Shown here one piece after another: positions 4,384-51,857 of a stretch of 64,000 bases of DNA. The DNA lies in NCBI RefSeq assembly GCF_018143015.1, contig NC_054741.1, forward strand, positions 53,335,048 through 53,399,047. The letters run 5' to 3'. A program made the translations under genes and the position numbers. This DNA comes from Lytechinus variegatus. Its lineage: Eukaryota; Echinodermata; Echinoidea; Temnopleuroida; Toxopneustidae. The notes below the pieces were generated by a model that did not search any database, was not told the origin of the DNA, and saw only the letters and a program-made list of their open reading frames with translations. The first letter of the stretch is position 1, and every line of letters begins with the position of its first letter.

Positions 4384-6456
4384 TCAAATTTCCAGCCGTC
4401 TCAGCACAGTACCTCGATAGATGTTATTTCCATCTGGATATGTATTCTTGATGATGGCCTGGACGCAAGCAGGGAGCTGTACTCTGATGTCTTTGCCCAA
4501 GATGCCCCAGCACCACCTAACAAATTGGCGATAGGCAACATATCGATATTTCCTGTATGTACGTGTAAGCAATAGTGAAAAAAAGAAATGTTATAAAAAC
4601 ATTTTACAGATTCATTGGCCAGAATTGCAAAAAACCTGTATGCTAAATTAGTTTGAAAATCCCTGATTAATGTAAGCCTAGATCCATCTGTAATTCTAGG
4701 CTAATAATTTGTTGATAAAAGAATAGCATGAACAAACAGCAATCAAATATATGTACAACCATTTAGTAAATCTAGTTACAAAAAAAAAAGATCAATGTAC
4801 ATGTAAGCCTATTCACGTATAATTCTACAATAAAAAATTATGAACTATCAAATTTATACAACCATTTCATGTACTCCATCCCTATCAAAAGTCATGGGAA
4901 ATATTAACAGGCAACGGTACAGGTATCTGCTGCTCTACAATTCAGGTACATGTACAGAAGCTGCTGACTCCCATGTAAATCTATTTCGTGTTCTCTGGCT
5001 CATGGATGGTGATCTTAGAGGCTGTTTATATTCAGACTCAAACAAGATTAAAAAATTAAATATTGAGACATAGATCTACACGTAGATATAATTAGTTTAT
5101 CTAATCAATATACATATTTTGATTTTTTAACTTACTCATTGTTTCGAGCACCAAATGCTCTTGCCTGCCTTCGCCACCTTTCCGTGAAATGTTGCCATGC
5201 AATGTACAATGTTACGGGGTTGAGTATGGCTGGATAAAAATCCCGAGCTTGGGTGATGCACTCCACGCCTTCCCCCTCTTTTGCCACCTCTGCAATTTCT
5301 CTGCAGCAGAGACAGTCTCCAACATTGAACGACGGTAAAATCTCGCAATGGCCGCACTGACACCTGTATATAAATAGGCAAGCACACACGAAAAAAAGTA
5401 AATAAACAAATTAAACATCACATTGACTTGACATACCGGTAGCGCATTTACACTAAAAATAGTATCAAAACTGCCCAATGGCAATAAGTCAGAAGAGAGA
5501 AACATGGTTATTGACTGAGACAAACTATACTTGCCCAAACCATGGCATGGTACAAGTCAGTTCCCCCATGTCTGCGCGGTCTCCCAAGTCTGCCTACCCA
5601 CGTATCTGCGCGATTCTAGTAAAAGAAGATACGCAACGAGCACGAACTTTACACAGGCAATACATAGACAGGTATTCATTAAAAAAAAATCCGACTCAAA
5701 ATGGTGGAAAAATAATTAATTCAGGGCATTTAATGTGATGGCCTAAAAATGCAGCTTTTGTCATTAAAAATCCCAGAATCGTGTGCAAAAAGAATGAGTG
5801 CGCAGACATGGGGCCTTGACTTGAGGTACCATTTTTTTCATTCTGAAAATTTTTTTCAAGAAAATCTCATATTTGCTTTCATTTTTTAATGAGAAATTTG
5901 GTACACTTACTCGTAATAATATAAGGAACACTATTAACCAAAAGATTTTGTGAAATAAAAGAAATTCATGTTAAATCTTCACTCAAATTGTTAGGTGTGC
6001 AGACTTGGGGCCCAATGAATAATGACCATCATACAATCAAACTCAAAGTTCAAAGTAACTTCAAAATATCAAAGCAATTTGATGTTGGAGACAGACAGAC
6101 CAAATCCTAGTTCACTTGGCTGCAACTATCAAGAAAAAATTATAGGCATGGTGATAGAGTGAAACTTACCAGTTATCGGTATTCCTTGGGTCGAGACGAG
6201 TAATGTCTCTGTTTCCACGAAAGCCCACACCATCACCGAGAGGTATCGCACCCGGTTCCGGCGGCTGCACAGGCTCTGGTTCGTGCTGGTAAGGTTGCGG
6301 AATTTGATCTCGTTCATCAACGAGTCTTTCCTCTTCTTCTCCTTCAAGCTCTCCTACTTCCCCATCATCATCGTCATCGCTGTCATTATAATCACTTTCG
6401 TCACTGATGTCAATGTCCATATCCAAAAATTCAATTTCCTCATCAACAGCCGTCAT
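4384..6456 (-). CDS. P2X7-type C-terminal (zinc-binding) domain protein, three exons
   Basis: Exons join at 6456-6170, 5363-5136 and 4552-4384 (287+228+169 = 684 nt, 227 residues, stop included). All junctions are GT-AG and in phase: CTG|GTAAGT, acag|GTGTCAG, GA|GTAAGT, acag|GAAATAT. Residues 1-75 are very acidic (DEEIEFLDMDIDISDES, then an Asp/Glu run), then Pro-rich. From about residue 93 the domain begins with the spliced W-C-x-C-G-x-C, followed by DCLCCREI, ECITQ, and VAYRQFVRWCWGILGKDI to the end. This Cys spacing and the AYRQFVRW block are characteristic of the intracellular C-terminal domain of P2X7 receptors, a zinc-binding cysteine-rich module. The channel part is absent, so it cannot be an ion channel. 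Stand-alone proteins of this type are known in many aquatic invertebrates. Their role is unknown; DNA or protein interaction is only speculation. The start is the first ATG and gives a full acidic leader. Confidence 0.85.
5553..5823. mobile_element. MITE-like fold-back in intron 1 of the P2X7-like gene
   Basis: The left end AAGTCAGTTCCCCCATGTCTG and the right end CAGACATGGGGCCTTGACTT are inverted repeats of about 23 bp with few mismatches, both next to a GGTAC word. The interior has no coding capacity. A related fragment, GCAGACTTGGGGCCCA, is at about 5999-6014. Confidence 0.55.
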
Positions 6457-8160: not shown

Positions 8161-9664
8161 TGATGTTTAAAAATTGGGTCTTTTTTTGCAAAACCTTTTA
8201 AGAGTACATATGAAGACAATGATGCTCTGTGTATGTAGTTAAGTATTCAACTTTATTCCCATGAAAAGATGCACTTACAATATATTTTTAAAGATCAAAT
8301 CTATCCAATAAGTTCATTTGAATGAATACATGTATAGTAAACCGTGGAATGAATATAGTAAACAGTGAAAAAAAGTCCTGTGAGAGTTAATATTCTGGCC
8401 CCAAAATGGAACATTTTATAAAGCAGGGTTCCAGGATTTTTCAAAAGGGGAGGACAGAATTTCCCGAGGAAAAAAGGTCTTCGCTCTGAAGGAAGGGGGG
8501 GGGGGTGCGGGGGCACGGGTCGACTGTGCCCCTCCGTCCATTGGATCAGCCAGTGATTTTCAGTATGTTTTTTGGAGATCTCGAGAACAAGATGCGTATC
8601 TCTGTAGAAGCGCTATTATACTCTGGGAAATTTAGATCGGGGGGGGGGGGGGGTAAAACCCAAATGACAGGACATTCTACAGAGATTTTTTTTAATCATT
8701 AAATAACTTAAGTATAACAGTTCAATCAATCTAGCTTATCTGTCGAATAATGTGTAATATCTCTACGGTATCAACTGTTTCTTCATCAAATTTCCTTGTT
8801 GCTTTTCACATACTCTTGTTGCATTTTACATTGAATTTGCCGTTTCTTTTGACATTATTTTAACCTATTTCTAATCTAAATCAATGTTTTTAATTTACTC
8901 ATAGTAATGTGCTCTATAGAATCTATACAACCATGACATGTTTTTATCTAATTCAATCACATTTGGCTTATTGACCTTAACAAACCATTTATTTTCCTTT
9001 ATTTTTTCATCTTATCGACCATTTGTTTGTGTATTTTGATATAAAAAATAATAGAAAACTAATGAATTATGTTATTTTATCAGTCGCAGTGGGCATTTTT
9101 TTAATGTTAAGTTAACCCATTATATGTGTCTTACCTTTGTATACTTTTACAATTTCTTTCAAGCTTTTGTCAATTAAACATTTTGAGCCTGTGAGCTGCC
9201 TGTTTAATTTTCAATAAGCCAATTCAATTCAATATCATCAAATTGAGAAAACGAAAGTAATTGAGAAAAAGGAAAATAATATATTATATCAATACATCTC
9301 TGAAGTAAGTTGATATTAATATTAACATGATTATCAGAACTTAAGTAAAATTCTGTAAAAACACAATTGAGTCCAATAATCTTGAATTGCCTCGAGTGTG
9401 TCTTCTGTAGGCTACTCTTTGTATTCGAGGATTAATTAGCTGGAAATGAAATGAAATATATGGGAAAATCATGATGATCGGACTATTTAGTTTGATTTGT
9501 GAAAAAAATACTGACTGAAAAAACAACTAAAAACTTATGACAAGAAATCATGAAAAGAGCTTTATAAGTGTATGTATGGTAATATAGAGCAAAAAAACCT
9601 TTCTACTGTTACGGAAATAGAGTAGGTCATTGGTTTATATATCATTAGATATCTCATTGAGCTA

Positions 9665-9854: not shown

Positions 9855-9916
9855 CTCCGATATAAGAAGAGGTCTGCTCGACCCAGAACGTTGAGAAATC
9901 TTTCACAAAGGTCGCC
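9855..9916 (-). CDS. Gene A exon 3 (end of Reeler domain)
   Basis: Acceptor tattttag|GGCGACC and donor GGAG|GTAAGAC bound a 62-nt exon. With the last two bases of exon 2 it reads V-A-T-F-V-K-D-F-S-T-F-W-V, the conserved final strand of Reeler domains. Confidence 0.8.
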
Positions 9917-12900
9917 CTAAAATAGAACAAGTACATTCTCCAAATAATTCTTTTACAAACGCATGAATATGTAAAATTATATTTTTGTCGCTTGCATGAC
10001 ATTAATTAACCACCCGCCCACAAATTCAAGAAAATTGAAAAATAATGCAAGGATAAATGAAATTTGATGTACGGCAATATCCATATCAATATTTCATTGA
10101 TAAAGCTGTCACTTATATCAGTTATCACTATCTATTACTGTTTTCTGCAAATGCACGTGTAGACAGTCATAATTTGTCAACGACTCAAAATTTGCGGTCT
10201 ATGTAAAAACTAAGCGAGTGTTCATTGTTTTTGGCCATCTTAATGATCTACACTAAACCCGGGCTTTTACGCCCGTCCTATACCCACTATTTTCTGACTA
10301 TTTGAAATTAACTACTAAAGGATTCAAAAATAAACATTGAGGTGATCAAAATGTATATTACAAATGTATAGTAAGAAATTTTGGCAATAACCAAGCAATC
10401 ATGGCTTACAGTGTGAGATTTAATGACTGAAAAATGTGTTTTCAGCGTACACCCTTATAAATAAATAATAATAACGTTTTATTTACCCAGGGTATAGCCA
10501 CTTCAGTTAGGAAACTGCTCTACCAGCGGGCCCTGCATAACACAACATGTTATTATTACCCTTCTCCAACCTAAATGCTGAGCGCCTAGCAAGAAGGAAG
10601 AAGGTCCCATTTTTATAAGTCTTTGGTCTGACTCGGCCGAGGATCGAACCCACGACCTCCCGTTCATGACGTGGACGCTCTACCGCTGAGCCACCATGCC
10701 CTTATGTAGTGTAAACGCTTATTATGATTAGATCAAACACTCAAAGATTAGCATTTTAAAGCAAACTGTTTTCACATCATCAGTTCTACACTATTTTTCA
10801 ACCACGATTAGAAATGAAACAGAGGTGACTTCAGTTTGAAAAGGATATAGTTTGGTCAAACAGCTTTATTCACATGTTGTTCCCACTTACTTGCATCATT
10901 TACATTCCCTTTTGGAGGCCTATTCATCTTTCTATTCAATTTGTTTAGTCTGGTTTTTGCTTTGTCAATTTTTTTCGGCTACGAAAATTTTTCCTCTGCA
11001 AAATTGCCCCTACTTAATTTTGGAAAATCCTGGATCCGCCCCTGCCATTGTTCTTTCTTCCACCTTCGTGAGTTTCCTGATTTGAACTTACACAACATAA
11101 ACGTCGCCAGGATTTGAATCTTGTGGTGCTGTCCACGTGAACGTGTTGGTGGCCCCTTTATCATTCCCATTTGCATGTGTAACGGCGTCAGGGTTCCCGT
11201 TACATGATATGGTCCTGAAATTAGCAGTATTCTCCACTGTCCATGTACCGACGACACCATCGCTGTCCTTTCTACGCATCTGCATCAGAATTCCTTTGAA
11301 TCCCGACGAAACAGTCGATGTGTCAGTGACAGTGACTGTAACAATAAATTAAGTTTGAAGAATAAAAATCACCATCCGAATATCTTAGGGACTATGAGAA
11401 TTTAGAGTCCATGATTCCCAACAATGTATGCTTACCTTTATGATTAGCAACTCGTTATGTTAGCAAGTTACCAGAGGTATTGGCATATTATTTAAACTGA
11501 AATATTGTCTTTCCGAAAGATCACTATTTATGTTGTACAAATCTTTTATTTTCTCGCATATAACATATTGCAATATATTGTGTGCGCGCGCGCGCGTGTG
11601 TGTGTGTGGGGGGGGGGGGGGTGGGGGAATAGCAATAAAACGAAAATAGAATCAAAAGCAGGCCCTCAGCATTTTTTTCAAACTCGCATTTTTTTTAGCA
11701 CATACTGATCATATTTTTCTATCAATGAAATATTAAAAATTCATGACATTCATACTTTCCAAACTGCGATTTTTATGTACAAATTCTCAACCAAATCTAC
11801 ACTCTTTCATTAAGATAATACAATAGCAACACTCTTTCATATCCTACACATCACTCATCAAACATTTACTTATAAACAAACCCGAAAATTAGCGCAGAAA
11901 ACGGTCAGACATCACTGCCCAAATATTTGGAAAGATTTGCCCAATAATATCAAACTCACTATCTTTTCTTTCAAAGCGTCATTAAAACATTATCTTTTAT
12001 CCAAATATTCTTAAATATCACACCTGCACTTTCACCCACTTGCACACACACGCACATACAATCTCTCCTCTTTATCCTTTACTGATGATTTGTAAAGACA
12101 GATTTTTCTTCTAGACTTATAAGCAATATAATTGGTTTCCATGTAGCCCTTTTCCCTTATGGCTGCTATTACTCAAGCATTTATTTTGCGTATATAGTTT
12201 GCCACTGCATATTTGTTTTACTTCGTCTCATGCATACATTGTATTTATGCATAAATTTTGTTATTACTCTGTTGTAAATTTATCACATTGCAATGTACTT
12301 TAATGTCATACTACGATTATGTTTATGTATTGTAAATTTATTTTGACTTTACAATATTAAAAAAATGCAGAAACCCCTGAAAAAATCACAATAGGTGGGT
12401 CTTCATCAGCTCGAGCTTGAAGAATAGCACGCTAATGTGGGATCAGAGAAATAAGCCCGAAGTCAGTGGGAGTGTGCGATCCCGTCTTCACCAGCTCGAG
12501 CTCGAGTTTAAGCCCGAAACTGGAGCATGCGCGCTTCAAAGGAACAAGCGCGCGGTTTTAAAATTTTACCGCGCCAACATTCGGACCGTCTGCGTAAGAT
12601 CGTATCTCTGTGGCGTACGTACACAGAACGTGTGCGTACACGTACACGTGTGTTTTGTTGTTTGTAAGAGCGGAAATTGATTGTTGCAGTGCATGGTGGT
12701 ATCGATAAACCCGAAATTTGAGCTCGAGCTGGTGAAGACGCGAAAAGAATAGCGCGCTATTTTGCGAATTAGCTCGCTATTCTGAAAATAAGTCCAAGAT
12801 TTTGGTGGTTTATTTTTCGATCAGAATAGCGCGCTATTTCCGTCTTCATTGCAAAATTAGCTCGCTATTCTCTGATCGGGCTAATTCACTGGATCGGATC

Positions 12901-15036
12901 AGGAATAGCGCGCTATTCTTCAAGCTCGAGCTGGTGAAGACGCACCTTATGTGCCGAACATTTTCAAGGAACAGAATTGTTTTGGTTATGCAGTTTACAA
13001 CTGATGTCAGATCCTCACATAAATTTTCAATGTTTCTTTCATATGGATATTTTGAACAATATAGGCACATTTTTTTTTTTACTGGTTACTTTCATAAATG
13101 ACCTTTTTATTGATGAATATCACACAACTCATATATACAAATTAATCAATTATTAATAAAAAAATAATCAAATATTAATTGAAAATTAATTAATAAGAAA
13201 CCAATAAAGGATAACCATGATAACCATTTTTTAGCGAACAAGATGCAAGGGTAACACAGATATGAACATAAAAGTCGAACAAATACATGTAAGAAACATG
13301 ATTGTAAAGAGATTAAAAAAAAATCATGAAGAAAGTACATTCTTGAAAGAGGATAATGATAAGCCAGTAAATTCATTGCACAACAATGATATTGAAGAAA
13401 TCATCAATGTTAAGGTGGTGTCACACCTTGGCGTTTTAGACAGCGTATGCCCGACGTATCAACATTTCTCTAAAACGTCGGCATACGCTGAACTTTGATT
13501 TTTTTTCAACTCTGGGCGTATACTTAGCGTATTCATAACGAGTTGGACGTATACATAACGTATTAGTAACTTATATCGAACGCTTCGTTAACTTATAAGT
13601 AACGTATTCCAACGAATGCTTAGCGTATTGCTGGCGTACACAACTTATGCCCTACGATAGCCTAACTTACGCATAGCGCGCGGCAGCGTATTGCTGACGA
13701 ACACGTGTCGTAGCCTATAAAAAGGCTGCCGCTCGACTATTCAAATCATAACCGCACGATATATCACCTATCAACACCACCGCCATGCCGAAGAAAACTC
13801 CTGTGAACCCCACCTTTATATACCAATTCCTATAAACATGATAAACGTTGTCAATACGCCATTATACGGTAGCTGTAAGTTATAAACACATTCAGTAAGT
13901 TTTGTGGTCGTCCGGAGCACGTCTTCATACGTCAATATACGTTGGAGTTAAGTTACACATACGTTCAAAGCACGTTACTCATAGGTTAGAAGTAAGTTTA
14001 CACTGGACATTATCTCGACGTACATCGACTTATGAGTAACTTACGAGTAACGTGTGTCAACGTGTATCAACGATCGCGTAACTTGCCTACAACTTGTGGC
14101 CCGCGTATGCGGGACGTATGAGCCATACGCTGGCATACGTCGAAAAATTTTGTGCTTGCACAAAATTTTTCGACGACCTCGCCGTATGACGACGTATACC
14201 TGCGTGTTTTAGCGTACTCTTAACGTATGCAAAACTTACCCGTAACGTATTCGACGTACGCCAGCGTATTCGCCAAATTCCTCATACGTCGGGCATACGC
14301 TGTCTAAAACGCCAAGGTGTGACAGCGCCTTTAAAATCATATACATTTGATTATGCTTCTACATTGTAATGGTCATAAATCTAACCGAGCAGCTTAATCA
14401 TTGTGAAGTAAAACAGACATTTGGCTGTAACAAAGAAGATGGGGAAAAGTGGGTAACAGATACACTGTAAAAACTGTGGTGTTAAAACTGACACCAATTG
14501 TGTTAATAGAGGACCACACCTTGATGTGTTAAATTAACACCCTAGAGATTGAACATAACACAAGAGTGTAAATGTAACAACCATAGGTGTTGTAATAACA
14601 CCTATAGGTGTAAAACTAACACCACCAATTTAACACCGGTGTAAAATAACTGGTGTGGTCCTCTTGCACCGGTTAACACTACAGTTTTTGCTGTGTAGAC
14701 AGAGAAAGGGGGCGAGAGAGAAAGAGAGAGAGAGAGAGGGGGGGGGTGGGTGAATGTCAGTGGAGCAATGTTGACGAACGAGGTCGTGATCTCCCCCCCC
14801 CCCACAAATACCCCATCCATAAAAAAGCTTGAAAATTGTGACCCACCAGATAAGGTCCCTCCAGGTGGGTACTTATCACTTGATATCGTAATGGAATAAG
14901 GACTATCCTCGGTCTGTGGCAACACGGAGTGACCAGGCACCATGGTGTCACATCTTGAAACAGGAGCGCCAGATGGATATCCGCTGGTCTCTATGGCAAC
15001 CAAGAAGACGAAGGCTACTGTCCTTGCAATCTTCAT
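9855..15036 (-). CDS. Gene A: secreted Reeler-domain protein (3' end not found)
   Basis: Three coding exons join at 15036-14847, 11335-11092 and 9916-9855, with donors CTG|GTGGGT, TTGT|GTAAGT and GAG|GTAAGA and phases 1, 2, 1. Residues 1-19 (MKIARTVAFVFLVAIETSG) are a signal peptide. The Reeler domain starts at YPSGAP and shows its usual marks: C-x-x-M-x-P-x-H, SPYSI, YPPGG, FKGILMQMRRKD, VGTW, ISC, AVTHANG, FTWTAP, and ATFVKDFSTFWV. Reeler domains occur in reelin, FRRS1/SDR2 ferric reductases and insect immune proteins such as noduler/Hdd11. No DOMON or cytochrome b561 exon is visible, so it is not an evident FRRS1. Exons 2 and 3 match gene B in length (244 and 62 nt) and phase, so the two are tandem paralogues. 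EGF exons and the tail were not found: the gene may be truncated, or its last exons are diverged. Confidence 0.8.
10452..10702 (-). mobile_element. tRNA-derived SINE in gene A intron 2
   Basis: On the minus strand the head reads like a tRNA: an A-box TGGCTCAGCGG (10693-10683) and a B-box GGTTCGATCC (10650-10641), an RNA polymerase III internal promoter. A non-tRNA body follows and the element ends in a TAA/TTATT-type tail at about 10452-10475. The acceptor stem does not close and the element runs on for about 180 bp, so it is a SINE rather than a tRNA gene. Confidence 0.75.
11092..11335 (-). CDS. Gene A exon 2 (core of Reeler domain)
   Basis: Acceptor attgttacag|TCACTG and donor TTGT|GTAAGT bound a 244-nt exon that opens V-T-V-T-D-T-S. 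It carries the GFKGILMQMRRKD, VGTW and VTHANGNDKGAT blocks. Length and phase match gene B exon 2 exactly. Confidence 0.85.
11579..11623. repeat. (GT/GC)n and poly-G microsatellite
   Basis: A TGTGCGCGCGCG tract runs into (TG)n and then into a run of more than ten G, within gene A intron 1. Confidence 0.8.
11830..12362 (+). mobile_element. LINE 3' fragment (C-terminal remnant plus 3' UTR)
   Basis: From about 11890 to 12014 the plus strand reads AQKTVRHHCPNIWKDLPN, ending FKASLKHYLLSKYS and stop. This is the C-terminus typical of CR1/L2-type LINE ORF2 (compare GPKFWNSL and KRKLKLYLL in the element at 43-46 kb). About 350 bp of AT-rich 3' UTR follows, ending in an AATATTAAAAAAAT tail. It is 5'-truncated, as usual for LINEs. 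Confidence 0.7.
12393..12947. mobile_element. TIR element built of AGCGCGCTATTC words
   Basis: The ends AGGTGGGTCTTCATCAGCTC and GAGCTGGTGAAGACGCACCT are inverted repeats that continue through CGAGCTTGAAGAATAGC to about 40 bp. The interior repeats AGCGCGCTATT and AGCTCGCTATTC words and the same CTTCACCAGCTCGAGCT block several times. No protein is encoded. Confidence 0.65.
13410..14334. mobile_element. Long TIR element with TTAA flanks, made of CGTAT/ATACG words
   Basis: The outer ends TTAAGGTGGTGTCACACC and GGTGTGACAGCGCCTTTAA continue inward as GCGTTTTAGACAGCGTATGC and its inverse, giving TIRs of about 45 bp. TTAA occurs at both edges, compatible with a TTAA target duplication (Kolobok or piggyBac style; inference). 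The interior is dense in CGTA, ACGTAT and TTACG words and has no open frame for a transposase. Confidence 0.65.
14461..14697. mobile_element. TACACTGYAAAAACT MITE, copy 1
   Basis: TACACTGTAAAAACTGTGG at the left and CTACAGTTTTTGCTGTGTA at the right are inverted repeats. The interior repeats GGTGTTA / TAACACC. Related elements lie at 17094-17340 and 27043-27283. This copy lies in gene A intron 1. Confidence 0.7.
14698..14846. repeat. (GA)n / poly-G / poly-C simple sequence
   Basis: A (GA)n tract of about 45 bp runs into a G8 tract, with a C11 tract near 14793-14803. It lies between the MITE and exon 1 of gene A. Confidence 0.7.
14847..15036 (-). CDS. Gene A exon 1 (signal peptide and start of Reeler)
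   Basis: The ATG at 15036 opens a 190-nt exon with a signal peptide, then YPSGAPVSRCDTMVPGH and SPYSITIS, ending at a CTG|GTGGGT donor in phase 1. The paralogous exon of gene B has the same layout and end phase. Confidence 0.85.
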
Positions 15037-19044: not shown

Positions 19045-19184
19045 TTACAAGAATGTGATTAAAACCATAACTGCGGTCATCATCAGATGCAGACTGCATA
19101 GCAATTGCCTGCCTTTCCCTGTCGTTGATGATCTGTCTGTTAATAACACGGTCCCACTTATTGATTCTGTCGTGGATGGCAGAT
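19045..19184 (-). CDS. Gene B exon 6 (stalk and GPI-type C-terminus)
   Basis: Acceptor ttttattttag|ATCTGCC. The phase-1 reading gives D-L-P-S-T-T-E-S, then SSTTGKGRQ, a hydrophobic end and TAA at 19047-19045. The other two frames have longer open readings but do not fit the phase of exon 5. Confidence 0.8.
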
Positions 19185-22100
19185 CTAAAATAAAAGTGAA
19201 AAATATATGAAACATTTTCCTCCATAACACTCAATAGGAAATAAATGTTTATTATTATGTAGAGTTATTCAATGTAGGTAATATACATGCATCACTTACT
19301 CTAAAAATGAACGTAGATACAATTAAACACAGACAGATAAATTATGCAACCCCAATTTCTTTTCAGTGGAGGTGTTAAAAGAATATCAATTTTGCTGTTT
19401 AGTCAACAATGAACAAAGAATAAACGTGAACATATATCGAACGTAACATTGAAGGTATATCATAACACCTCAAACAAAATTAATATTATGCACACTACAA
19501 GTACAACTATTCGTAATACCCCCATCTACAAAGAAAGGTAACTAGGAGGTTCATTATGATAAAACTGTCGATCACGAAATATAAAATAAGAAGCCTGAAC
19601 ACTTCCAATTGTGGTAAAAATGAATAGTGAAAAAATAGGTGGATAATAATTTAAATTTAGTTCAATGAAATTGAAAATAACGGAGAATTTTAATTGGCAC
19701 TTTAACAAATTTTGTAAAGTCAACTGTAACTCTTTATATTAGCTTCAGGGAACGTCCCCTGGCAAACTGACTTTGTGCTGGTATGGGAAAAGGGTTTATA
19801 GGGAGGCATCACTTTACCTGGTTGGCACGTAGCTCCAGTATAATTGAAAGGACAGTTACACATGTAAGTTGCATTATCCGCAGAGTTCGTACAGTTTCCT
19901 CCATTAAGACACGGATTCGAATCACAGGGGTTTACTGGCACGGACAGAAAATTAATGTTAACATTAAGGGGATAAAACAGGGGAACATGCAAATTAATCT
20001 TGAAATAAAAAATATTCCTTAAGCTTTCATGAGGAAAAAAAAATCAAATCGACCTCAATTTCTGGAATTATGTCAACTCGGGCTAAATATATAATGCAGT
20101 CCTCTTCTTTTTACAGTTATTTTCATTTTTAAAATATATTTTTAGAGGCAACCTATTCTCTTTCTATTTTAATGAGACAATGGAAAAAAGCTCTTGCAAA
20201 AGTCGTTCTAGACTTTCCTTGAAAATTTCAAATAAAATTTTAAATAAATTTTTTTCTTCCATTTCAGTACATTTTTCATAAACATAAATTCATACATAAA
20301 TCAATTTGTTATAAAAAAATATAAGTAAGTACATATTGGGTGTAAGGAAGAAGGCATATACCCTAAAAGCTTAGGCTTGTGGCGGGATACGCCTGACGAC
20401 AAAAATACAATACAATACAAAGGAAAGGGCAGAGAAAAGAAAAGGAAAGGGAACAAGAGAGGGAGACGTGAGCGGGGAGGTGGGCATGAATTACTAAATA
20501 AAATAGAATGCTCAACAAAATATCAGTGGGGGCAAAGTATAAAACGACAACAATTTGTCCATGGTTCATGTTATGTTTGAAGTCAAAAGGAGACGTAAGA
20601 TCGGAAATATTTATATGTATAACGACAGAAGCAATTTTTTTCATTTTATACTTAAAGCTGGTTGTCGACAAAGATTTTTTTTTTATGTAATCCGGAATTT
20701 CTTTCCATATTTTGGGGCCAGTATAACGAATGTTGTGTTGGAAGATTATTTTTCTATGTTTGGGAATGAATATTTGATCGGGTAGCAAAATGATGTGTGT
20801 TGGAAACATGTGTAAATGAAGCGCGAAATTTTTGTGGAATTTGAGAATTTAAACATCTGTAAAGAAAATGACATTGTTGAAGTTTGTTGATGTCTTCTAA
20901 TTTCAACAATTTTAGGGAAGAAACAAATTCGTGGTATTTGCTGGTGGTATATTGACGTCTGGAGAAATAATACGTAAATTTTATTTTGAAGGGAACATAT
21001 TTTTTTAAGATGGGTTTGATATTTGTTAGCCCAGACTAAATTACAGCAATAAAAATATGGCAGGATTAAAGAGCAATACAATGTACGTAATATAGTTTTA
21101 GGCAAGTAAAAACTTAGACGATATATTATTCCAATATTTTTTGCAACTTTGTTCTCAATTTCATTTATGTGATGTATCCATGTTAAATTACTATCATTGA
21201 TAACGCCAAGAAACCTAGTATTTTCAACTCTGGGAATTATTTGATTGTTAAGCTTCACCACTACATGATTAAGATCAATACGCCTTGTGGAGTTACGGAA
21301 TATAATGTGGTTGCATTTCTTATAGTTAATGGTAAGCTTGTTCGCACAAAACCATTTACAAACATTTGTTAGTTCAGTATTTACAGTTTCACATAAGTGA
21401 TAAAGATTTTTTATCAGAATAAACAATATTGGTATCGTCGGCATACATAAAAAAGCAAAGGAGATTTGACGAACGATAAATGTCATTAAAAAATAAAATA
21501 AACAAAAGTGGGCCAAGTAATGACCCTTGTGGTACTCCACATTCAATTGTCCTAAGTTCAGACTGAACGGAGTTATAAATGATTACGATTTGAGAGGTAA
21601 CTAGAAGAAAGGTCGAGGGCAGTTCCACGAATACCATAGTTATCTAGTTATGATATAAGTATTTTATGATTCATAGTGTCAAACGCTTTTGACAAGTCAA
21701 TAAATATCCCTATTGCAAATGAGTCGTGCTCAAAGAAGTCAATTACGGTATTTTTAATTCAACAAGAGCTAGTTCTGTTGAGTGGTCACTACGAAATCCG
21801 TACATAATAGAGTTAGGGCGCTAGTTAAGATGTGGTTTCAGGGTTCAGAATGATATATAATGTGTTTTTAGATTGACTTATTATAAATATTATCGAAGAA
21901 TGGGCGTCGCGTCAAATTTCATGACACCAATGACGTAGGCCTAATGTTTAATTCAAAACCATGAAAACGTTCTGCTAAGATTGTGTTTCATGAGTACTTA
22001 GCGTATATTTGAAATTTCAAGCTCCCCATGACGTATATTGTGATGATAAAAATTTATTTTTGTTTAATCATCAGAAGACAGTTTTTATGGTTCAACGATG

Positions 22101-25100
22101 ACCTTTACAGGCAGAAGTAACAGAAAGGAACTCACCAACCACAAAAACACAACTAACCTATTACTTAAAAAGCAACTTCTTCCTGAGCATAAATTAAATT
22201 GGGTATCAGAGGTCTATTCTAGGTACTTGGGTATAGATTTTTCTGTTAATCTAGTAAAAATGGTCGATCATAACTATACTGAAAAAATAAAGAGATAAAA
22301 CGTCAATTTGTTTCATGGTCTAAAAGAGCTTAACCGTTCTGGGAAGAATTACTGTAGTAAAATCTTTGTTGGTACCGACATTAAATTATTTATTGCTGTC
22401 ACTTCCAGAACCAAGTCAGGCAATAATGAAAGATATAAATCGTTCAAATGTGTCAACTGTATGATAAAGACGGGGTTAAAATTATAGATTTTTCATACAT
22501 GCTAAATCTCTGAAGATTTCAAGGATAAGACGATTTTTAAACGAGTCTGAAAACAGGTTTACTTTTCATATGTTCAATGTTTTCTTAAAATCAAACACAC
22601 AACCTTCACTTTGAAGTAGAAAAATGTAAGGCTCTTGTCAGCTGGTAAGGTTTGTTAGGTTTTCGAGCTGACCTTTGGGGTTGTTTTTTGTTTGATTCCT
22701 TTCCAGGCAACAATGGATATTAAAATAAGGTGGTTTCAAAATATTGTATATGAAAGATTCTCTGTTGAAATTTGGTATAGTGGCAAATATGAAATGTACT
22801 TTTTACATTGATAATGAAACAAATATGCATATATTTTGCCTTTGTACTTATTTTAAAGTAATATGGTCAAGAATAGAATCATGGATATTTCAAAATGCTC
22901 GAGAAGGTGATCGTATTAACGAATGAAAACAAATTGTTTGGATTTTGTGGTACAAATTATAATGTTCCTAACTGTATCACGGTGATCTTAAGAAAAGAGA
23001 TATATTTAGCCACATTGAGAACAGAGTTACCTTCATTTACTACAATTATGTCCGCTTTAAAACTTTATTATGAAATGGAAAAATATACATATGAAACAAA
23101 TTTCAGAACAAATAAGATCAGAAAGAAATGGTTTCGTACCAATGTTTATTTCTTTGATATAAGTATCAGATCTCTCATTTATCTTGCCAAATTTGTTTTG
23201 GCTGTGTCAATTTATTGTGTAATAAGTCAGTTTGACTATATGTCTATGTATTAGGAAATATGTATATAACATGTTTATTTACTGTTTGTCTGAAAAATGT
23301 AAATGTTTATTAAGTGTAATTATGCTTTTTGAAAATAAAGAGCTCTGTAGAAGGGGTGGCGGGGGACATATTACTTACATGTCATTTCACATGTTGATCC
23401 AGTAGTGAGTTCTGGACAATTACAGGTGAACATGTTTCCATTTTGATTGCAATCCCCACCGGAAAGACAGGGATTAGGGTTACAAGGGTCAGATGCTGGA
23501 TCACCTTTTGAAAATAAACATAAAATTTGAATAATGATAAAATCAATAATATTTTTCATCAGAGTCCAAATGATCTTACATTACATGATTTTATATCATT
23601 TACTTACATATTGCACAAGGATAAATGAGTCCATACTTTAAATTAATCATGATAATGGTATTGAATAATGATGGTGCAATAACGTTTTTTGTCATATTAT
23701 CAATCTTCTACGTGAGATGCAGTCTGTGAACATATCACCTCATATGAAATAGGAAACATGCACTGCCCAAGAGAATATTACATATTTGATACCATTTAAA
23801 ACCTCACTTTGATAAAAATGTATATATTCTTATATCAGACACTAACAATCTGACTAACAACTAAGTATTCCAACTCATACATTCACACATAATATGTGTG
23901 AATGTATGAGTTGGAATACTTAGTTGTTACAACATATTATGTTGGAGTTATCTTTCAATCAATTTACTAAATAGCAAATACACATTTCAGGTATAATTAA
24001 ATGAAATATCAATATATTTTTGTATACATACATATTAAATTGGTGCATGAGCATGGTGTGTGATCGTCATGTTTTATCCATACATCATATTTCAGCTTTA
24101 ACGTTTGAGGAAGGGAACTCACTTTGTGAGATACACCAGTTGAAAGAAAATACAACGACCCTATCAAACACTTAAACATTCGACAGTAACATGTCTTTTG
24201 TGTCTTAGATTGAGAATTTTCTATGATTTTTTTATTTACATGTTACTTACGTTCTATACTGTTTGTTCTCTCTGCCACCCAAAAGACGCTTCTCAACTGG
24301 ACAAATGTTGCCCTGAAAAAAAAAGACTATGCTGGTCATCTCAATATAAAGATGTACACGTCGGGATGTGAGCCTATCATGTTGTTGGATAACAGTTCTC
24401 ACGTCCATGGGAGATTCGACAGATAAGTAATGACCTCTACCAACCAAAGGTAAGTTTCATATATTCATGAACTATAATTTCATATTGCCACATATTTTTT
24501 TTCAATTTATAGAATCTAATGACCAAACCTCACTTTTATTTTTACAATATACAGTGGTAGGTTATGTTTCTCTGTCAATACTAGCGACCTATATTTATCA
24601 ATTCATACAAATATGATTTGCCGTTGAAGCATGTCATCGGGTAGGTCTAGTAAGTAACACATCAAGGCTAGTGGGTGATTTCTTGTTCGGTGTTTGGCAT
24701 TGGTGTTGGACTTTGGATTGCTTCCCCTAGCTCCAAAATCTATTCTGAGTTTGTAAAACTGATCCAGATCACATTATTGACATCTCAAAGAGTAGTGAGT
24801 GACTTTTCAGGACCACCTTCATTTTATGTTTGGTGTTATACTCGTGTAAAAATTGACCTAACACCAACACCAATAGGTAAACACTGAACTTGAAATCACC
24901 CAGTGTGGATTTTTGAAGATAAAGGTTGGATTATCCTTGACGTGACTTTGGCATTCATCATTGCCAATTCATTTAACAATGAAGTATATCATATTTTTTC
25001 AAAAAAAAAAAACTTCCAAAATCTCAGAGACGATCTTAGCTAATTGTTGAGATCGATATGAAGTACATATCCAGGGAACTCCTGAGTCCACAACGCGTTG

Positions 25101-28100
25101 TTACCGTCGCACCGTTGCAACGGTGCGACGGTAACATCTAGACATAATGTCCCTTATCTGGTGCTTATAGTGACAAAAAAAAAGAACGGGAAAAAGCGAA
25201 ACAGATTTGATACTTTACGTGAAATAGACAGCTCCGTTAGTTTCAGGAGGTGTCCAATTGAATTCAATAGTAGCTGCTTTGTCGTTATTATTAGCATGAG
25301 TTATGGCCGAATTAGCACCTTCGCAGGCCAGATATTTAAAATTAGTGGCGTCCCCATGCGACCATGTACCAATGATTTGGTCTCCATCGCTTGAAGTTTC
25401 TCGACGAGCTTGGATCAGAATACCCTTCAAAGCTGCAGAAGCGCTGTCCTTCGAAATTGTGACTAAAGAGAGAGAGAGAGGGGGGGGGGGGGGGGGGGGG
25501 GGGGCAGAGAGAAGAGACCGAACAGCGAGTAAAAATGCAAGTAGAGAACGAAATGCAAGTGGAGAACAATACTGACAACATTAAATAAAAAAGATTGGAT
25601 TTGGGGATATTGTAGACCCAATGATTTTTTTTTTCATTTTCTCGCTTTACGTGGATTGTATTTATTTCTCAACATGCCGGGTCAACATGGCAATACATCT
25701 TTCCTGTGACAATCATTTTTATGACAATACCATGCACTTCATTATCGCATTAAGAACAAGAGGTTTTGAACTGTAAGGTTTACACAGTTACTAATGTATT
25801 ATTAAAAATACAGACCAGTAAAAAAGGAGGTGTTTGAATGCGCTTGCTCACTCGCGCACATTAAAAAAAAAACGCCACAAGTTGTTGGTTTAGTTTTATT
25901 CATTCAATGATTGATTCATTGTAAATTTACTTTGTGGGAAAAGAATTGATATATTACATAAATATTCACTCAGATGCGGATGGATTATTCCATTCAGAGC
26001 AATTGATATATTGGCTTTATTCTTACCCATCTATTCGAACATCACACCAATGAATCATGCGTTTAACAAATTGAACATTATCATCAGTGCAGTTTTATTT
26101 AGATAAGGAATAACTTAAAGGGATTGGTTAACATTGGTTTGACTTTTAAAAAATCTGAGCGAGAAGGTCACACTTGCCACCTGTGTCTGTGATATGTTAC
26201 AAAAATGAAGCCCTGAAAAAAATGCATTCCAAAATCATTATTTAGTGCTTTAAAAATTGAAATATAAAGCGACCGGAAGCACCATCTTAATTTTATCCCA
26301 TACAGTTATGTGTACTATTTAGGCGTCAATAAGACGCTTATTTACAAAATCGGGTTTTGCCTTGTAGTTTTAGCTTTTCATTCTCAACAATGGTTGTTTT
26401 CAGGGTTTATTAGTTCTAATACATGCACTTGTACACATGATTCATCTTGGTTTGATTATTTCTTAAATCGGCTGCTCACAAAGTTAAACAATACCTTTAA
26501 TATTCTTAGTCTTGCTGTTTGTGTTATTTTTTTAATAATATGTAGATATTTCACAATGGCAAGAAAAAGAGTGTTAAAATTGCAGAAAAGAAAACATAGA
26601 ATAAAGTTCACAAAAGTGCAGTATTGATGGATCGTGAAAACCTGCACTTAAACCTAGTTTTGGAATGAGATCCCTGCCTTTATCGTTTTGGACTGTATCC
26701 GGTTGTATTCCTCATGCAGCTAACATAACGGAAACAAATATATGCAATGTCATAATACGATTGTTCGCTTCTAGCCATGTGAACATTAAGATAAAACATA
26801 GTGCCCAGTCGTTGACTATGACACTATATTTCCACTCTTTTTAAACCAAAATTTGAATAATCATTTGCTATGAAATGAGACTTCAAAATTTGGACTAGTT
26901 TAATAAGACAAATAATAATTATCCTTTATCTCTATCTTTCGTGTGGATGTTTAATTGGCTAGTGGTAAATGATTGTATTGTTTCCTGGGCTCGTACTACA
27001 AAGTGTTGCTACAGATTCAAACCAAACTCAAATTGATATTGATACACTGCAAAAACTCTGGTGTTGATTTAACACCAGCCCGGAATCTATATATGTCCAC
27101 ACCAGAGAAGTGTTAAACAATACAAGTTTCGTTTGGTCTAATACCAGATAGGTGTTTATACAACACCAGTTAGTATTAAAAACAGCATCGGTTTGATTAC
27201 AAACTGGTGTTGTTTCAATACTTCTCTGGTGTGGACATAATGATTCCAGGCTGATGATAAATCAACACGGGGTTTATGCAGTGTCATATCTCATAATTAC
27301 ACGTATTCAGATCAATCGCAACTCTATTATATGCAAGACGAGCACCGGGGGACCGTTTCATCAACATTTTTGTCCGACAAGTTGTCAGATCTGACATCTT
27401 TCCTTGATTCTGATTGGCTGAGAGGCACTGTTACTATAGTAACTGTCGGATAAAATGGGACTTGTCGGATAAAACGTCCGACACGTCCTTTCATGAAACG
27501 CTCCCCGGAAGCCCGTAACACAGAGCTTAGCAATCATCGTAGAGTAATATCTTTAAGATTGATTGCATTGACCAGAATGTAAAATCAAGCGTAACCTTTG
27601 TGTTATGGGACACAGCTGTTACCTCATACGTGATATCTGTTGGCATAATCAGGATGATGACACGACCAATGGCCTGTGCAGCTCCAAATATATATCACTG
27701 TCACAAAACCTCATCTCATAACTATATGTTTGTCACAACAACTCGTAGAACATCCCTCTCTGCCTATACTTTTGTACTCATCGAGCCATGCAAAACCATT
27801 ATCTTTCTTTATTTCGAGAACCAAGCTGCTTTGTATCCAGAAATGGTTATATATAACCATCAACGTATACTATAATTATATGCACCCGACCTTATTGCTA
27901 TTACTGGTATGAAATTTTCCCACCCGATCATGGTATTTCTTTTCCAAGATTGAACTAGGTATGGTAAGTAAACTATCAATGATAAAAGCAGGATTGTGTC
28001 TGAGGTTTATTTTTTTTATTTTAGAGTGACAAAAGAGAGAAAGAGGGGTGCTTACCGGTAATCTGCTGTCCTGGCGTATAGGCTGCATGACTTATTGACA

Positions 28101-28275
28101 TGGTATATGGACTATTCGATGTCTGGGGACTTGAAGAATGCTGTGGAGTCATATGACTGCAGGTTTGTATTGGAGCTCCACCTGGGTAGGCTTTGCTGTT
28201 GTGAACAAGACACACGATCATGACAACAATTTTCGAAATGACAAGCAAGTTAAAAGGTTTCGAGCTTCCCGCCAT
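19045..28275 (-). CDS. Gene B: GPI-anchored Reeler-EGF-EGF surface protein, six exons
   Basis: Exons at 28275-28056, 25462-25219, 24312-24251, 23504-23379, 19934-19818 and 19184-19045 join in frame (220+244+62+126+117+140 = 909 nt, 302 residues). All introns are GT-AG, with phases 1, 2, 1, 1, 1. Residues 1-29 form a signal peptide. Reeler spans about 30-173: YPGGAP, C-x-H-M-T-P-Q-H, SPYTMSIS, ALKGILIQARRE, IGTW, AITHANN, FNWTPP, ATFVQLRSVFWV. EGF1 (about 176-217, CLSGGDC to GSTCE) and EGF2 (about 218-256, CLNGGNC to GATCQ) each have six cysteines. The tail has a Ser/Thr stretch (LPSTTESISG, SSTTGKG), then a 19-residue hydrophobic end (LLCSLHLMMTAVMVLITFL), as in GPI signals; a single TM anchor is the alternative. 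Predicted location: outer cell surface. An in-frame ATG at 28311 would add 12 residues before the hydrophobic core; 28275 gives the better signal peptide. LINE fragments occupy intron 4. Confidence 0.85.
19818..19934 (-). CDS. Gene B exon 5 (EGF domain 2)
   Basis: Symmetric phase 1-1 exon of 117 nt between acceptor ccgtgccag|TAAACC and donor CCAG|GTAAAG. It reads NPCDSNPCLNGGNC, then TYMCNCPFNYTGATCQP: six cysteines with EGF spacing, N-glycosylation sequons NCT, NAT and NYT. Confidence 0.88.
20345..21830 (-). mobile_element. CR1/L2-like LINE fragment, degenerate
   Basis: On the minus strand, RT motifs appear in order: YGFRSDHSTELAL, FIDLSKAFDTMNH, CGVPQGSLLGPLLFILFFND and MYADDTN. A C-terminal part follows with CNHIIFRNS, TRFLGV, LILPYFYCCNLVWAN and GPKIWKEIPDYIKK. 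The frame is broken by shifts and stops (for example after KILIS near 21652). The 3' region around 20370-20410 ends in GTCGTCAGGCGTATCC and CCCTAAAAGC-type sequence. It lies in gene B intron 4 in the same orientation as the gene. Confidence 0.8.
22098..23347 (+). mobile_element. L1/Tx1-like LINE 3' fragment, degenerate
   Basis: The plus strand reads RYLGIDFSVNLVKMVDHNYT and IKRQFVSWSKRA, then after a frameshift TVLGRITVVKSLLVPTLNYL and LLSLPEPSQAIMKDI. It ends with NKLFGFCG, EIYLATLRTELPSF and LKLYYEMEKYTYETNF to a stop at 23254. This is the order of the RT thumb and C-terminal region of L1-group LINEs. Several frameshifts and stops make it inactive. It lies in gene B intron 4, opposite to the gene and to the neighbouring LINE. 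Confidence 0.75.
23379..23504 (-). CDS. Gene B exon 4 (EGF domain 1)
   Basis: Symmetric phase 1-1 exon of 126 nt, acceptor ttttcaaaag|GTGATCC, donor GACAT|GTAAGT. It reads DPCNPNPCLSGGDC, NMFTCNCPEL and TTGSTCEM: six cysteines. Confidence 0.88.
23855..23929. repeat. 75-bp perfect palindrome in gene B intron 3
   Basis: The left arm (23855-23891) begins TAACAACTAAGTATTCCAAC. The right arm (23893-23929) is its exact reverse complement, ending GGAATACTTAGTTGTTA, with one central base at 23892. No mismatch is seen in 37 bp. Confidence 0.95.
24251..24312 (-). CDS. Gene B exon 3 (end of Reeler domain)
   Basis: Acceptor ctttttttttcag|GGCAAC and donor GAAC|GTAAGT bound 62 nt. In the spliced frame it reads T-A-T-F-V-Q-L-R-S-V-F-W-V-A-E, matching gene A exon 3. 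Confidence 0.85.
24313..25098. other. Gene B intron 2, left part
   Basis: No coding or named repeat is recognised. The segment 24660-24900 (GTGGGTGATTTCTTGTTCGG to GAACTTGAAATCACCCA) has inverted ends and resembles a fold-back of about 230 bp. Confidence 0.4.
25099..25136. repeat. 38-bp GC-rich perfect palindrome in gene B intron 2
   Basis: TGTTACCGTCGCACCGTTG is followed immediately by its exact reverse complement with no spacer. A second short palindrome, CAACGCGTTG (25091-25100), overlaps its left edge. It lies about 85 bp inside the intron from the exon 2 donor. Confidence 0.95.
25219..25462 (-). CDS. Gene B exon 2 (core of Reeler domain)
   Basis: Acceptor ctctctttag|TCACAATT and donor TTCAC|GTAAAG bound 244 nt in phase 1 to 2. 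It carries LKGILIQARRETSSDGD, IIGTWSHGDATNF, ACEGANSAITHANNNDKAAT and FNWTPPETNG. Confidence 0.88.
25463..25504 (-). repeat. C25-(CT)n tract forming the exon 2 polypyrimidine tract
   Basis: The plus strand shows 25 consecutive G (25480-25504) next to (GA)6. On the sense strand this is C25 followed by (CT)n and TTTAG, ending at the exon 2 acceptor of gene B. Confidence 0.9.
25505..27042. other. Gene B intron 1, left part
   Basis: No gene recognised. A 105-residue plus-strand open frame at 26310-26627 has no recognisable motif. The segment 26110-26330 (AAAGGGATTGGTTAACATTGG onward, with GCGACCGGAAGCACCATC) looks like part of a dispersed repeat. Confidence 0.35.
27043..27283. mobile_element. 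TACACTGC MITE, copy 3
   Basis: The left end GATACACTGCAAAAACTCTG and the right end GGGGTTTATGCAGTGTC are inverted repeats, with internal ACACCAGAGAAGTGTT / AATACTTCTCTGGTGT arms. It has the same family layout as 17094-17340. Confidence 0.75.
27346..27508. mobile_element. GTTTCATGAAAGGA MITE, copy 1
   Basis: CCGGGGGACCGTTTCATCAAC and CTTTCATGAAACGCTCCCCGG are inverted ends. The interior has GTCCGACAAGTTGTCAGATC and TTGATTCTGATTGGCTGAGA. The copy at 33139-33299 is the same family in the opposite orientation. Confidence 0.75.
27508..27612. mobile_element. GTAACACAAAG MITE, copy 2
   Basis: The left AGCCCGTAACACAGAGCTTAG and right CCTTTGTGTTATGGGACAC ends are inverted. The interior TTGATTGCATTGAC matches the copy at 1615-1716. 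It directly abuts the preceding MITE. Confidence 0.65.
28056..28275 (-). CDS. Gene B exon 1 (signal peptide and start of Reeler)
   Basis: The ATG at 28275 opens a hydrophobic leader (NLLVISKIVVMIVCLV), then AYPGGAPIQTCSHMTPQH, SPYTMSIS and YTPGQQIT, ending at ACCG|GTAAGC in phase 1. Confidence 0.85.
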
Positions 28276-28770: not shown

Positions 28771-29512
28771 GTTTTTGTCTCACCTGCATAGCAGAGTGAG
28801 ACTATAGGCGCCGCTTTTCCAACGGCGGCGGCGTCAACATCAAATCTTAACCTGAGGTTAAGTTTTTGAAATGACATCATAACTTAGAAAGTATATGGAC
28901 CTAGTTCATGAAACTTGGCCATAAGGTTAATCAAGTATTACTGAACATCCTATTAGAGTTTCATGTCACATGACCTAGGTCAAAGGTCATTTAGGGTCAG
29001 TGAACTTTGGCCGATTGGGGGTATCTGTTGAATTACAATCAAAACTTTAAAAGTTTTTGGATCTGATTCATGAAAATTGGACATAATAGTAATCAAGTAT
29101 CACTGAACATCCTGTGCAAGTTTCAGGTCACATGATCAAGGTCAAAGGTAATTTAGAGTCAATGAACTTTAGCCGAATCGGGGGTATTTGTTGAATTACC
29201 ATCATAACTTTAAAAGTATGTTGGTCTAATTCATAAAACTTGCACATAAGAGTAATCAAGTATCACTGAACATCCTGTGCGCATTTTATGTCACATGACC
29301 AAGGTCAATGAACTATGGCCATAATGGGGTATCTGTTGAATTACCATCCTATCTCTTTAAAGTGTATTGGTCTAGTTCATAAAACATGGAAATAAGAGTA
29401 ACCAAGTATCACTGAACATCTTGTGCGAGTTATAGTAGTTTTCAATGTCAGCACTGCTGCTATGTTGAATCGCGTGATGCAGGTGAGACGGCCAGAGGCA
29501 TTCCACTTGTTT
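28771..29512 (-). mobile_element. GTCTCACCTGC element with DR1 motifs, copy 1
   Basis: Read on the minus strand it runs from CAAGTGGAATGCCTCTGGCC to GGCGCCTATAGTCTCACTC. The tips pair as GTCTCACCTGC / GCAGGTGAGAC. Between them lie repeated units with GTTCAGTGATACTTG and TTCATGAA words. One intact AGGTCAAAGGTCA is at about 28977-28989. Non-coding. Confidence 0.75.
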
Positions 29513-34549: not shown

Positions 34550-35676
34550 CAAGTGGAATGCCTCTGGCGGTCTAACCTGCATCACGCGATTCAATATAGC
34601 AGCAGTGCTGACTTTGAAAACTACTGTAAAATAATTATTCACAAAAAACATATATAATATATAATTCATATACAATGATACAATACTACGTTCATTGACA
34701 TTTGACCTTGATCATGATGTGACCTAGAACTTGTCAGTGATACTTGGATTACCCCTATATCCACATTTTATACAACATATCTATAAACTTTGAAAGGTCA
34801 TGTGACCTGAAACTCGCACAAGATGTTCAGTGATACTTGGTTACTCTTATGTCCAAGTTTCATGAATCAGATCCATAAACTTTCAAAGTTATGATGGTAA
34901 TTCAACAGATACCCCCCACATGGCCAAAGTTCATTGACCTTTGTCGTTGGTCATGTGACCTGAAATGTGCACAGGATGTTCAGTGATACTTGATTACTCT
35001 TATGTCCAAGTTTTATGAACTAGACCAAAACAACTTTCAAAGTTATCATGGTAATTCAACAAATACCCCAATTTGGCCAAAGTTCGTTGACCTTAAATGA
35101 CCTTTGACCTTGATCATGTGACCTGAAATTTAGACAGCATGTGAAGTGTTACTTGATTACTTTTATGTCCAAGTTTTATGAACTAGACCAAAAAACTTTC
35201 AAAGTTATGATGGTAATTCAACAAATACCCCCAATTTGGCCAAAGTTCATTGACCCTAAATGACCTTTGACCTTGGTCATGTGACTCAAGACTCAAGCAG
35301 GATATTCAGCAATACTAGATTAATCTTATATCGAAGTTTCATGAACTAGGTCCATATATTTTCTAAGTTATGATGACATTTCAAAAACTTAGCCTTCGGT
35401 TAAGATTTTGATGTTGATTCCCCCAACATGGTCTAAGTTCATTGAACCTACATGACCTTTGACCTTGGTCATGTGACTCAAAAATCAGGCGGGATGTTCA
35501 GTAATACTTGTTTAACCTTATGGCCAAGTTTCATGAACTAGGTCTATATACTTTCTAAGTTATGCTATCATTTCAAAAACTTAACCTTCGGTTAAGATTT
35601 GGTGTTGACGCCGCCGCCGTCGCCGTCGGAAAAGCGGCGCCTTTAGTCTCACTCTGCTTCGCAGGTGAGACAAAAA
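34550..35676 (+). mobile_element. GTCTCACCTGC element with DR1 motifs, copy 2
   Basis: It begins CAAGTGGAATGCCTCTGGCG and ends CTCTGCTTCGCAGGTGAGAC. It contains about six tandem units of roughly 150-170 bp with TTCATGAACTAG, AAAGTTATGATGG and TTGGCCAAAGTTCATTGAC. Three units keep an intact TGACCTTTGACCT. A CCGCCGCCGTCGCCGTCGG tract lies near the right end. It is inverted relative to the copy at 28771. Confidence 0.8.
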
Positions 35677-49710: not shown

Positions 49711-49900
49711 ATGATGAAGATGATTATGATTACCATCATCATTATGAGTTATATTTATGATAATCATCACTGTTGTTATACTTTGATCATAATCGATAAA
49801 AATGATCACTTTTTTATCATAAAATTAACATTATCATTTTTATAATAAAATTAACACTGTCATGATTATTGCTGCAATTAGTTTGTTATTACTGCCACAA
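49711..49900. repeat. ATT/ATC-rich simple sequence
   Basis: Repeated ATTATCAT and TGATGATTAT words. Nothing coding. Confidence 0.6.
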
Positions 49901-50194
49901 TAGGGAGTTTTCGCTTGGTGACGTATGAAGCATTCTAGTACAAAGTAAATGTATTGTAAATGACCTTCAAATAAAAAATGACAGCTGAGAAAAGAGCGGC
50001 AGTTTCGTCTTAAGTTTCAGAGCTGACGAACAATTGCAAATATGTCATTTGTACAGAATAAACGACAAAATTGCGGCTTTGATCCTCCAATTTTCGACCT
50101 AGACTTCTTTCATGGTCTTTTTCATGACGGGCGTTTGACAATATATATTTTTTGCTCTCGGATCCTCCGTACGTCGTCGTTCGAAAACTCCCTA
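49901..50194. mobile_element. MITE-like element, TAGGGAGTTTTCG ends
   Basis: TAGGGAGTTTTCGCTTGGTGACG at the left and CGTCGTTCGAAAACTCCCTA at the right are inverted repeats. No coding capacity. Confidence 0.7.
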
Positions 50195-51746: not shown

Positions 51747-51857
51747 CGACTGCGATGTCACAAAGTTGACCGGTATGGGAAATCGGACAAGCACAAATGA
51801 ACCCAGTCCCAGATGGTTGACAAGTCCCACCGTTCAGGCACGGCGAAGAACTGCAAG
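51747..51857 (-). CDS. Gene C: orphan EGF exon
   Basis: A symmetric phase 1-1 exon of 111 nt lies between acceptor tttcaacag|CTTGCAG and donor GTCG|GTATGT. It reads CSSSPCLNGGTCQPSGTG, then FICACPISHTGQLCDIAV: six cysteines with canonical EGF spacing and the CLNGGTC signature. Same strand, phase and style as the two EGF exons of gene B. No other exon of this gene could be found; upstream exons should be above 51858, where a 987-bp element is inserted, and may lie outside the window. Confidence 0.75.

Follow-up and report, generated by a model that had tools for sequence, protein, structure and literature searches.

Gene B and its predicted protein

The 64,000-nucleotide stretch of Lytechinus variegatus DNA analysed here (the window, C2:53335048-53399047) carries on its minus strand a six-exon gene, referred to below as gene B, whose predicted protein has a signal peptide, a Reeler domain, two epidermal growth factor (EGF) domains and a Ser/Thr-rich stalk with a hydrophobic C-terminus. 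An earlier note on this DNA had proposed that six minus-strand exons join by phase into a complete protein of 302 residues, and this was borne out, since the exons (Table 1) add up to 909 nt, or 302 codons and a stop, with junction phases of 1, 2, 1, 1 and 1, and all five introns (2593, 906, 746, 3444 and 633 bp) start with GTAA and end with AG. AATAAA motifs are found beyond exon 6, at 18978 and 18867. Judged from its sequence, gene B is a real protein-coding gene, with a well-supported and intact-looking gene model.

A Pfam search of the spliced protein returned the Reeler domain and the two EGFs that had been expected. The Reeler match (PF02014, E=1.9e-35) covers residues 39-167 of the 302 and profile positions 1-131 of 131, at 122.7 bits against a cut-off of 21, and so places the protein in the Reeler family by both score and full profile length. 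The profile runs unbroken across three exons, and these Reeler exons are therefore securely joined. After the Reeler come two EGF stretches (E=2.2e-10), and the other matches at E up to 1 consist of two EGF-type models below their cut-off and two at chance level. The N-terminus is hydrophobic, as are the last 19 residues (mean Kyte-Doolittle hydropathy 2.27), where the hydrophobicity reaches the final residue; four N-glycosylation sequons are present, at 142, 231, 238 and 248. The best PDB sequence matches of the protein are Delta-like 1 and Notch1, through the EGF pair.

A cluster of Reeler genes with common exon phases

The earlier note had treated gene B as a lone gene, and this was not upheld: gene B belongs to a clustered family whose members vary in their number of EGFs. 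In the 294 kb read around the window (coordinates outside the window are window coordinates continued outwards), six Reeler genes, A to F, lie within about 275 kb, all with the Reeler phases 1-2-1. A whole-genome Reeler search gave at least 36 matches at E up to 1 and at least 25 Reeler-core exons at E up to 1.5e-4, and six of these core exons fall within a single 220-kb stretch on contig C2.

The order of Reeler followed by EGF is common to genes B, D, E and F, and the joining of the Reeler to the EGF exons in gene B is drawn from this shared general order together with the phase. The EGF exons are of phase 1-1 wherever this could be judged in the cluster. A scan restricted to phase 1-1 exons from the outset says nothing about phase; in a scan without this restriction, a donor above threshold was found for 25 of 59 EGF matches, and the best donor fitted phase 1 in all 25. 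Acceptors above threshold were found for 21 of the 59, and 20 of them fitted phase 1, the single misfit being at exon 5 of gene B, whose own acceptor scored just below threshold. The full arrangement, with Reeler exons of phases 1-2-1, phase 1-1 EGF exons and a phase-1 last exon encoding a Ser/Thr-rich and hydrophobic end, is complete in B, in E and, with frame breaks, in D.

We also compared gene B with its relatives for the ratio of nonsynonymous to synonymous change (dN/dS). Over exons 1 to 5, B and F are 57% identical, with a dN/dS of 0.39 (bootstrap 0.28-0.56), which is 0.49 (0.32-0.73) for the Reeler part alone and 0.18 (0.09-0.34) for the EGF pair, or 0.27 (0.14-0.51) when the pair is set against F's second EGF copy. 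The Reeler parts of B and C gave 0.30 (0.17-0.57), and between B and A the silent sites are saturated. Selection on B relative to C and F looks purifying from these values, which, being pairwise, cannot place the constraint on a branch.

Table 1. Exons of genes B and A and a lone EGF exon, in window coordinates
Feature	Position	Strand	Content and phase
Gene B exon 1	28056..28275	-	Start codon, signal peptide, start of Reeler; ends in phase 1; DNA around the exon 87% identical to gene C
Gene B exon 2	25219..25462	-	Reeler core; ends in phase 2
Gene B exon 3	24251..24312	-	End of Reeler (ATFVQ..VFWVAE); ends in phase 1
Gene B exon 4	23379..23504	-	EGF 1, phase 1-1; gene F EGF exons 80% and 75% identical
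Gene B exon 5	19818..19934	-	EGF 2, phase 1-1; gene F EGF exons 66% and 71% identical
Gene B exon 6	19045..19184	-	Ser/Thr-rich stalk, candidate omega site S276 (or S275), hydrophobic C-terminus, stop
Gene A exon 1	14847..15036	-	Reeler-only paralogue; phase 1
Gene A exon 2	11092..11335	-	Phase 2
Gene A exon 3	9855..9916	-	Phase 1
Gene A proposed last exon	9432..9439	-	Two residues and stop; tentative, picked by splice site and phase only
Lone EGF exon	51747..51857	-	Phase 1-1; between genes B and C

The members of the cluster differ in length and state. Gene A (15036-9432, minus strand, within the window), the immediate neighbour of gene B, has a Reeler at residues 29-157 and would encode 167 residues if its proposed last exon is right; no EGF exon was found for it. 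The Reeler of gene C (from 153627, minus strand) is 85% identical to that of B, and the 17 EGF matches that come after it reach as far as 94398. Gene D (from about 172830, minus strand) has a Reeler, nine intact phase 1-1 EGF exons, one broken EGF exon and a tail exon at 159894-159728. Gene E (195484-178782, minus strand) is open throughout and encodes 542 residues, with a Reeler, eight EGFs and a tail. In gene F (from 211649, plus strand), the Reeler is followed by EGFs 80% and 66% identical to the two of B, and this pair is repeated once downstream; many further EGFs extend to the limit of the region read, where the end of the gene was not reached. Some of the gene F EGF exons at 241210-283476 (plus strand; L026-L028, L030 and L031) are near-identical repeats, with a spacing of about 640 bp at 253.5-257.5 kb.

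Within intron 4 of gene B lies a broken reverse transcriptase remnant (20746-21758, minus strand), recognisable by FIDLSKAFDTMNH and YADDTNIVYS; by these motifs, it is of the non-LTR (non-long terminal repeat) type.

The last exon and the candidate membrane anchor

Exon 6 is the least certain piece of gene B. Its acceptor ranks fourth among the 241 AGs between 19817 and 15060. The tail exon of gene D was found when the DNA past D's last EGF was scanned for terminal exons of phase 1 with a hydrophobic product, and the B and D tails share 37% identity across 41 residues (pairwise E=2e-7), a similarity equalled by none of 2000 shuffles. In the DNA, this similarity starts at the splice acceptor: the first 39 bases of the exon match at 28 positions, compared to 6, 7 and 3 of 20 in the three 20-base blocks that precede the acceptor.

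A protein with a glycosylphosphatidylinositol (GPI) anchor is expected to have a signal peptide, a small-residue omega site, a hydrophilic spacer and a hydrophobic tail running to the last residue, and we judged the tails by a simple home-made rule set, not a validated predictor. Over both strands of the 294 kb, 319 candidate phase-1 terminal exons have a good acceptor; six of them pass the rule, and two of the six have a Ser/Thr-rich stalk, namely exon 6 of gene B and the tail of gene E (178897-178782). The latter is separated from E's last EGF exon by a 540-bp intron and has an STTGxG motif in common with the B tail. When the tails of B, D and E were combined into a profile, it recovered these three, as it must by construction, among 13,339 open reading frames (ORFs), with the next one at E=0.8. 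In summary, a shared terminal exon is well supported by the sequence comparison for B and D, and it probably extends to E.

By the simple rules, B and E are likely candidates for a GPI anchor, and the homologous tail of D fails the same rules. Of the Reeler-EGF-EGF-GPI architecture proposed in the earlier note, the domain order stood and was strengthened by the paralogues, and the GPI part is likely by these simple rules. A further frame with a hydrophobic C-terminus (49843-49962, minus strand) also passes the rule. It lies 1.8 kb past the lone EGF exon, which is either an orphan or perhaps a distant part of gene C, and the two together might form the far end of gene C or stand side by side by chance.

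Proposed role and relatives of the family

Taken together, these features make it probable that gene B encodes a small surface glycoprotein with a signal peptide, a Reeler head, two EGF spacers, a short Ser/Thr stalk and a probable GPI signal, as a member of a clustered family built of a Reeler, n EGFs and a tail. The protein would be secreted, probably glycosylated and probably held at the cell surface, with its C-terminal signal presumably exchanged for a GPI anchor and its EGFs spacing the Reeler head. More weakly, by analogy with arthropod Reelers, the head may bind microbial surface sugars or matrix; if it does bind microbes or matrix, protein B would therefore hold a recognition or adhesion head away from the cell surface, much as the earlier note had suggested in proposing a possible microbe-binding or adhesion receptor.

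Reeler proteins of insects and crustaceans are described as binding bacteria or polysaccharides, promoting nodules or inhibiting Vibrio (PMC12113285), and the expression of a sponge gene with a Reeler domain is reported to change after exposure to microbial molecules (PMC6208332). The head of the same protein might instead serve the extracellular matrix, cell adhesion or the organisation of the skeleton, which we regard as possible, if somewhat doubtful. Reeler is described as an extracellular matrix-binding domain and as present in a snail shell-matrix protein (PMC9365450), it is reported in red coral skeleton proteins (PMC7853314), and the best PDB matches of the cluster's Reeler profile are the spondin-1 structures 2zou, 2zot and 3coo, which are weak matches (E 0.05-0.09). 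On the other hand, clustered genes with a variable spacer length would be more usual in recognition families than among core matrix genes, and we tentatively place surface microbe recognition slightly ahead of a matrix or adhesion role.

Several observations weigh against the gene B model, the family or the anchor. The model was read from genomic DNA alone; exons 4 and 5 have weak acceptors, with scores of 1.2 and 1.6 compared to 4.3-6.8 for the other three, and an ATG frame in intron 3 (23695-23608) offers a possible alternative first exon for exons 4-6. The ATG frame, the weak exon 4 acceptor and the Reeler-only neighbour A would all suit an arrangement in which exons 1-3 encode a protein with no more than a Reeler and exons 4-6 are part of a different transcript. 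Such a split is nevertheless highly improbable, as the Reeler exons of D, E and F also lead on to EGF exons of phase 1-1, and paralogues of B's two EGF exons stand in the same order in F. The correspondence with F is probably not exact, as a weak EGF match there (240108-240212, hidden Markov model E=0.01) fits in phase and would add, between the Reeler and the B-like pair, one EGF without a close match in B. Judged from best matches, gene B looks like a mosaic, with its Reeler nearest C, its EGFs nearest F and its tail nearest D. In addition, the reading frame of gene D is interrupted in two places, in exon 1 and in the EGF exon near 168055, which may reflect decay or assembly error, and in gene C no complete exon could be made from 5 of the 17 EGF matches. 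These points are consistent with gene B being an unexpressed chimeric remnant of tandem duplication; this is very unlikely, given that its frame is complete and that the pairwise dN/dS values are well under 1, although such values do not give the branch on which the constraint acted.

The other points concern the tail. By letters, the likeness of the E tail is marginal, being equalled by 77 of 2000 shuffles in the comparison with B and by 27 of 2000 in that with D, and at the DNA level the E exon does not resemble the others (14 and 12 of 39 bases). The tail profile found no tail exon for genes C or F among the 13,339 ORFs, with the end of F not reached, and in genome-wide tblastn searches the last exons of B (E up to 1) and D (E up to 10) matched only themselves. 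The failure of D's tail, a clear homologue of B's, to pass the GPI rule would fit a plain transmembrane end in B as well; the tail might also be skipped, since a stop lies one full codon beyond the exon 3 donor and another 32 codons beyond the exon 5 donor. Either way, the protein would be membrane-spanning or secreted and not GPI-anchored, which we consider unlikely because the hydrophobic stretch of both B and E reaches the last residue, with no charged end.

The architecture of protein B, as predicted, is different from that of each named Reeler family tested, in agreement with the earlier claim that its domain order is not that of reelin, FRRS1/SDR2 or noduler; its Pfam matches above chance level are to Reeler and EGF-type models only. 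The noduler-type insect Reelers, which we take to include Hdd11, and the crustacean PcReeler and LvReeler share with B a signal peptide and one Reeler. Unlike noduler, protein B is not Reeler-only, as two EGFs and the Ser/Thr stalk with its hydrophobic C-terminus are added. Gene A, in contrast, is Reeler-only and matches noduler in size, noduler being described as a protein of 168 residues that is almost only Reeler, within a group of small arthropod defence proteins (PMC12113285). Like B, spondin-1 (F-spondin) has an N-terminal Reeler. It also contains Spond_N and TSP1 domains, neither of which was matched in B (Pfam, E up to 1, as for the families below). Reelin has both Reeler and EGF modules, as B does. 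It is described as having 3461 residues and eight reelin repeats (PMC4882317), whereas B has 302 residues and no reelin repeat was matched in it. The tandem six-cysteine EGFs of B resemble the arrays of Notch and Delta, a similarity of EGF modules in general, and no other Notch or Delta domain was matched. In FRRS1/SDR2, an N-terminal Reeler is accompanied by DOMON and cytochrome b561 domains, and B gave no match to either.

Since the EGF exons are of phase 1-1 and the Reeler block ends in phase 1, the number of EGFs is free to change by gain, loss or skipping without harm to the frame, so that the length of the stalk would change through EGF exons while head and anchor stay. Gene A has no EGF, B has 2, E has 8 and D has 9 that are intact, with higher numbers in C and F; gene B is the shortest EGF-bearing member seen of the family. 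We suggest, tentatively and at a little less than even confidence, that the cluster encodes lipid-anchored Reeler receptors of an echinoderm, in which the head is held at varying distance by 2 to 10 or more EGFs, whose number changes as exons are duplicated without loss of frame and perhaps also as exons are skipped. If this is true, a cell-attached, EGF-spaced Reeler cluster would represent a new surface use of the Reeler domain. The adjacent Reeler-only and Reeler-EGF genes, with the same splice phases, would make a clean case of exon shuffling, and the cluster would offer a set of candidate receptors together with a ready comparison of soluble and anchored forms. To our knowledge, surface recognition by a Reeler-based system with variable EGF spacing has no named counterpart; no paper on a Reeler-EGF-GPI protein was found in the open-access literature, which cannot show absence from print.

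A tree of 11 Reeler core exons resolved only two pairs, B with C (support 83/87) and one more (97/97); another three Reeler loci were left out because the core was absent in the strand and frame cut. The dispersed Reeler at C2:82.40 Mb (L041) has no EGF or tail match in the 10 kb downstream. Likewise, no EGF or tail was found within about 1.5 kb on each side of eight dispersed Reeler exons (one of them from this gene, and together 8 of the 19 listed core exons outside the cluster), flanks that are too short to exclude EGFs. In the same assembly, the mitochondrial COX1 gene, on contig C33, has 12 internal TGA codons, and in its COX1 stretch all 4 AAA codons stand at positions expected to be Asn and all 4 AGA codons at positions expected to be Ser, as in FPRMNNMSFW; this is the echinoderm/flatworm mitochondrial code (NCBI table 9) and suits an echinoderm.

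In the rest of the 64-kb window, no Rfam families at gathering score and no tRNAs were found. Tandem repeat arrays with a unit of about 163 bp lie at 28875-29431, 34796-35375 and 48465-49397, in both orientations, and share a motif like CCTTTGACCTTGGTCATGTGACC. The start of an acidic open frame (MTAVDEEIEFLDMDIDISDESDYNDSDDDDD...) is found at about 6170-6456 on the minus strand and ends at a donor-like GTAAGT.

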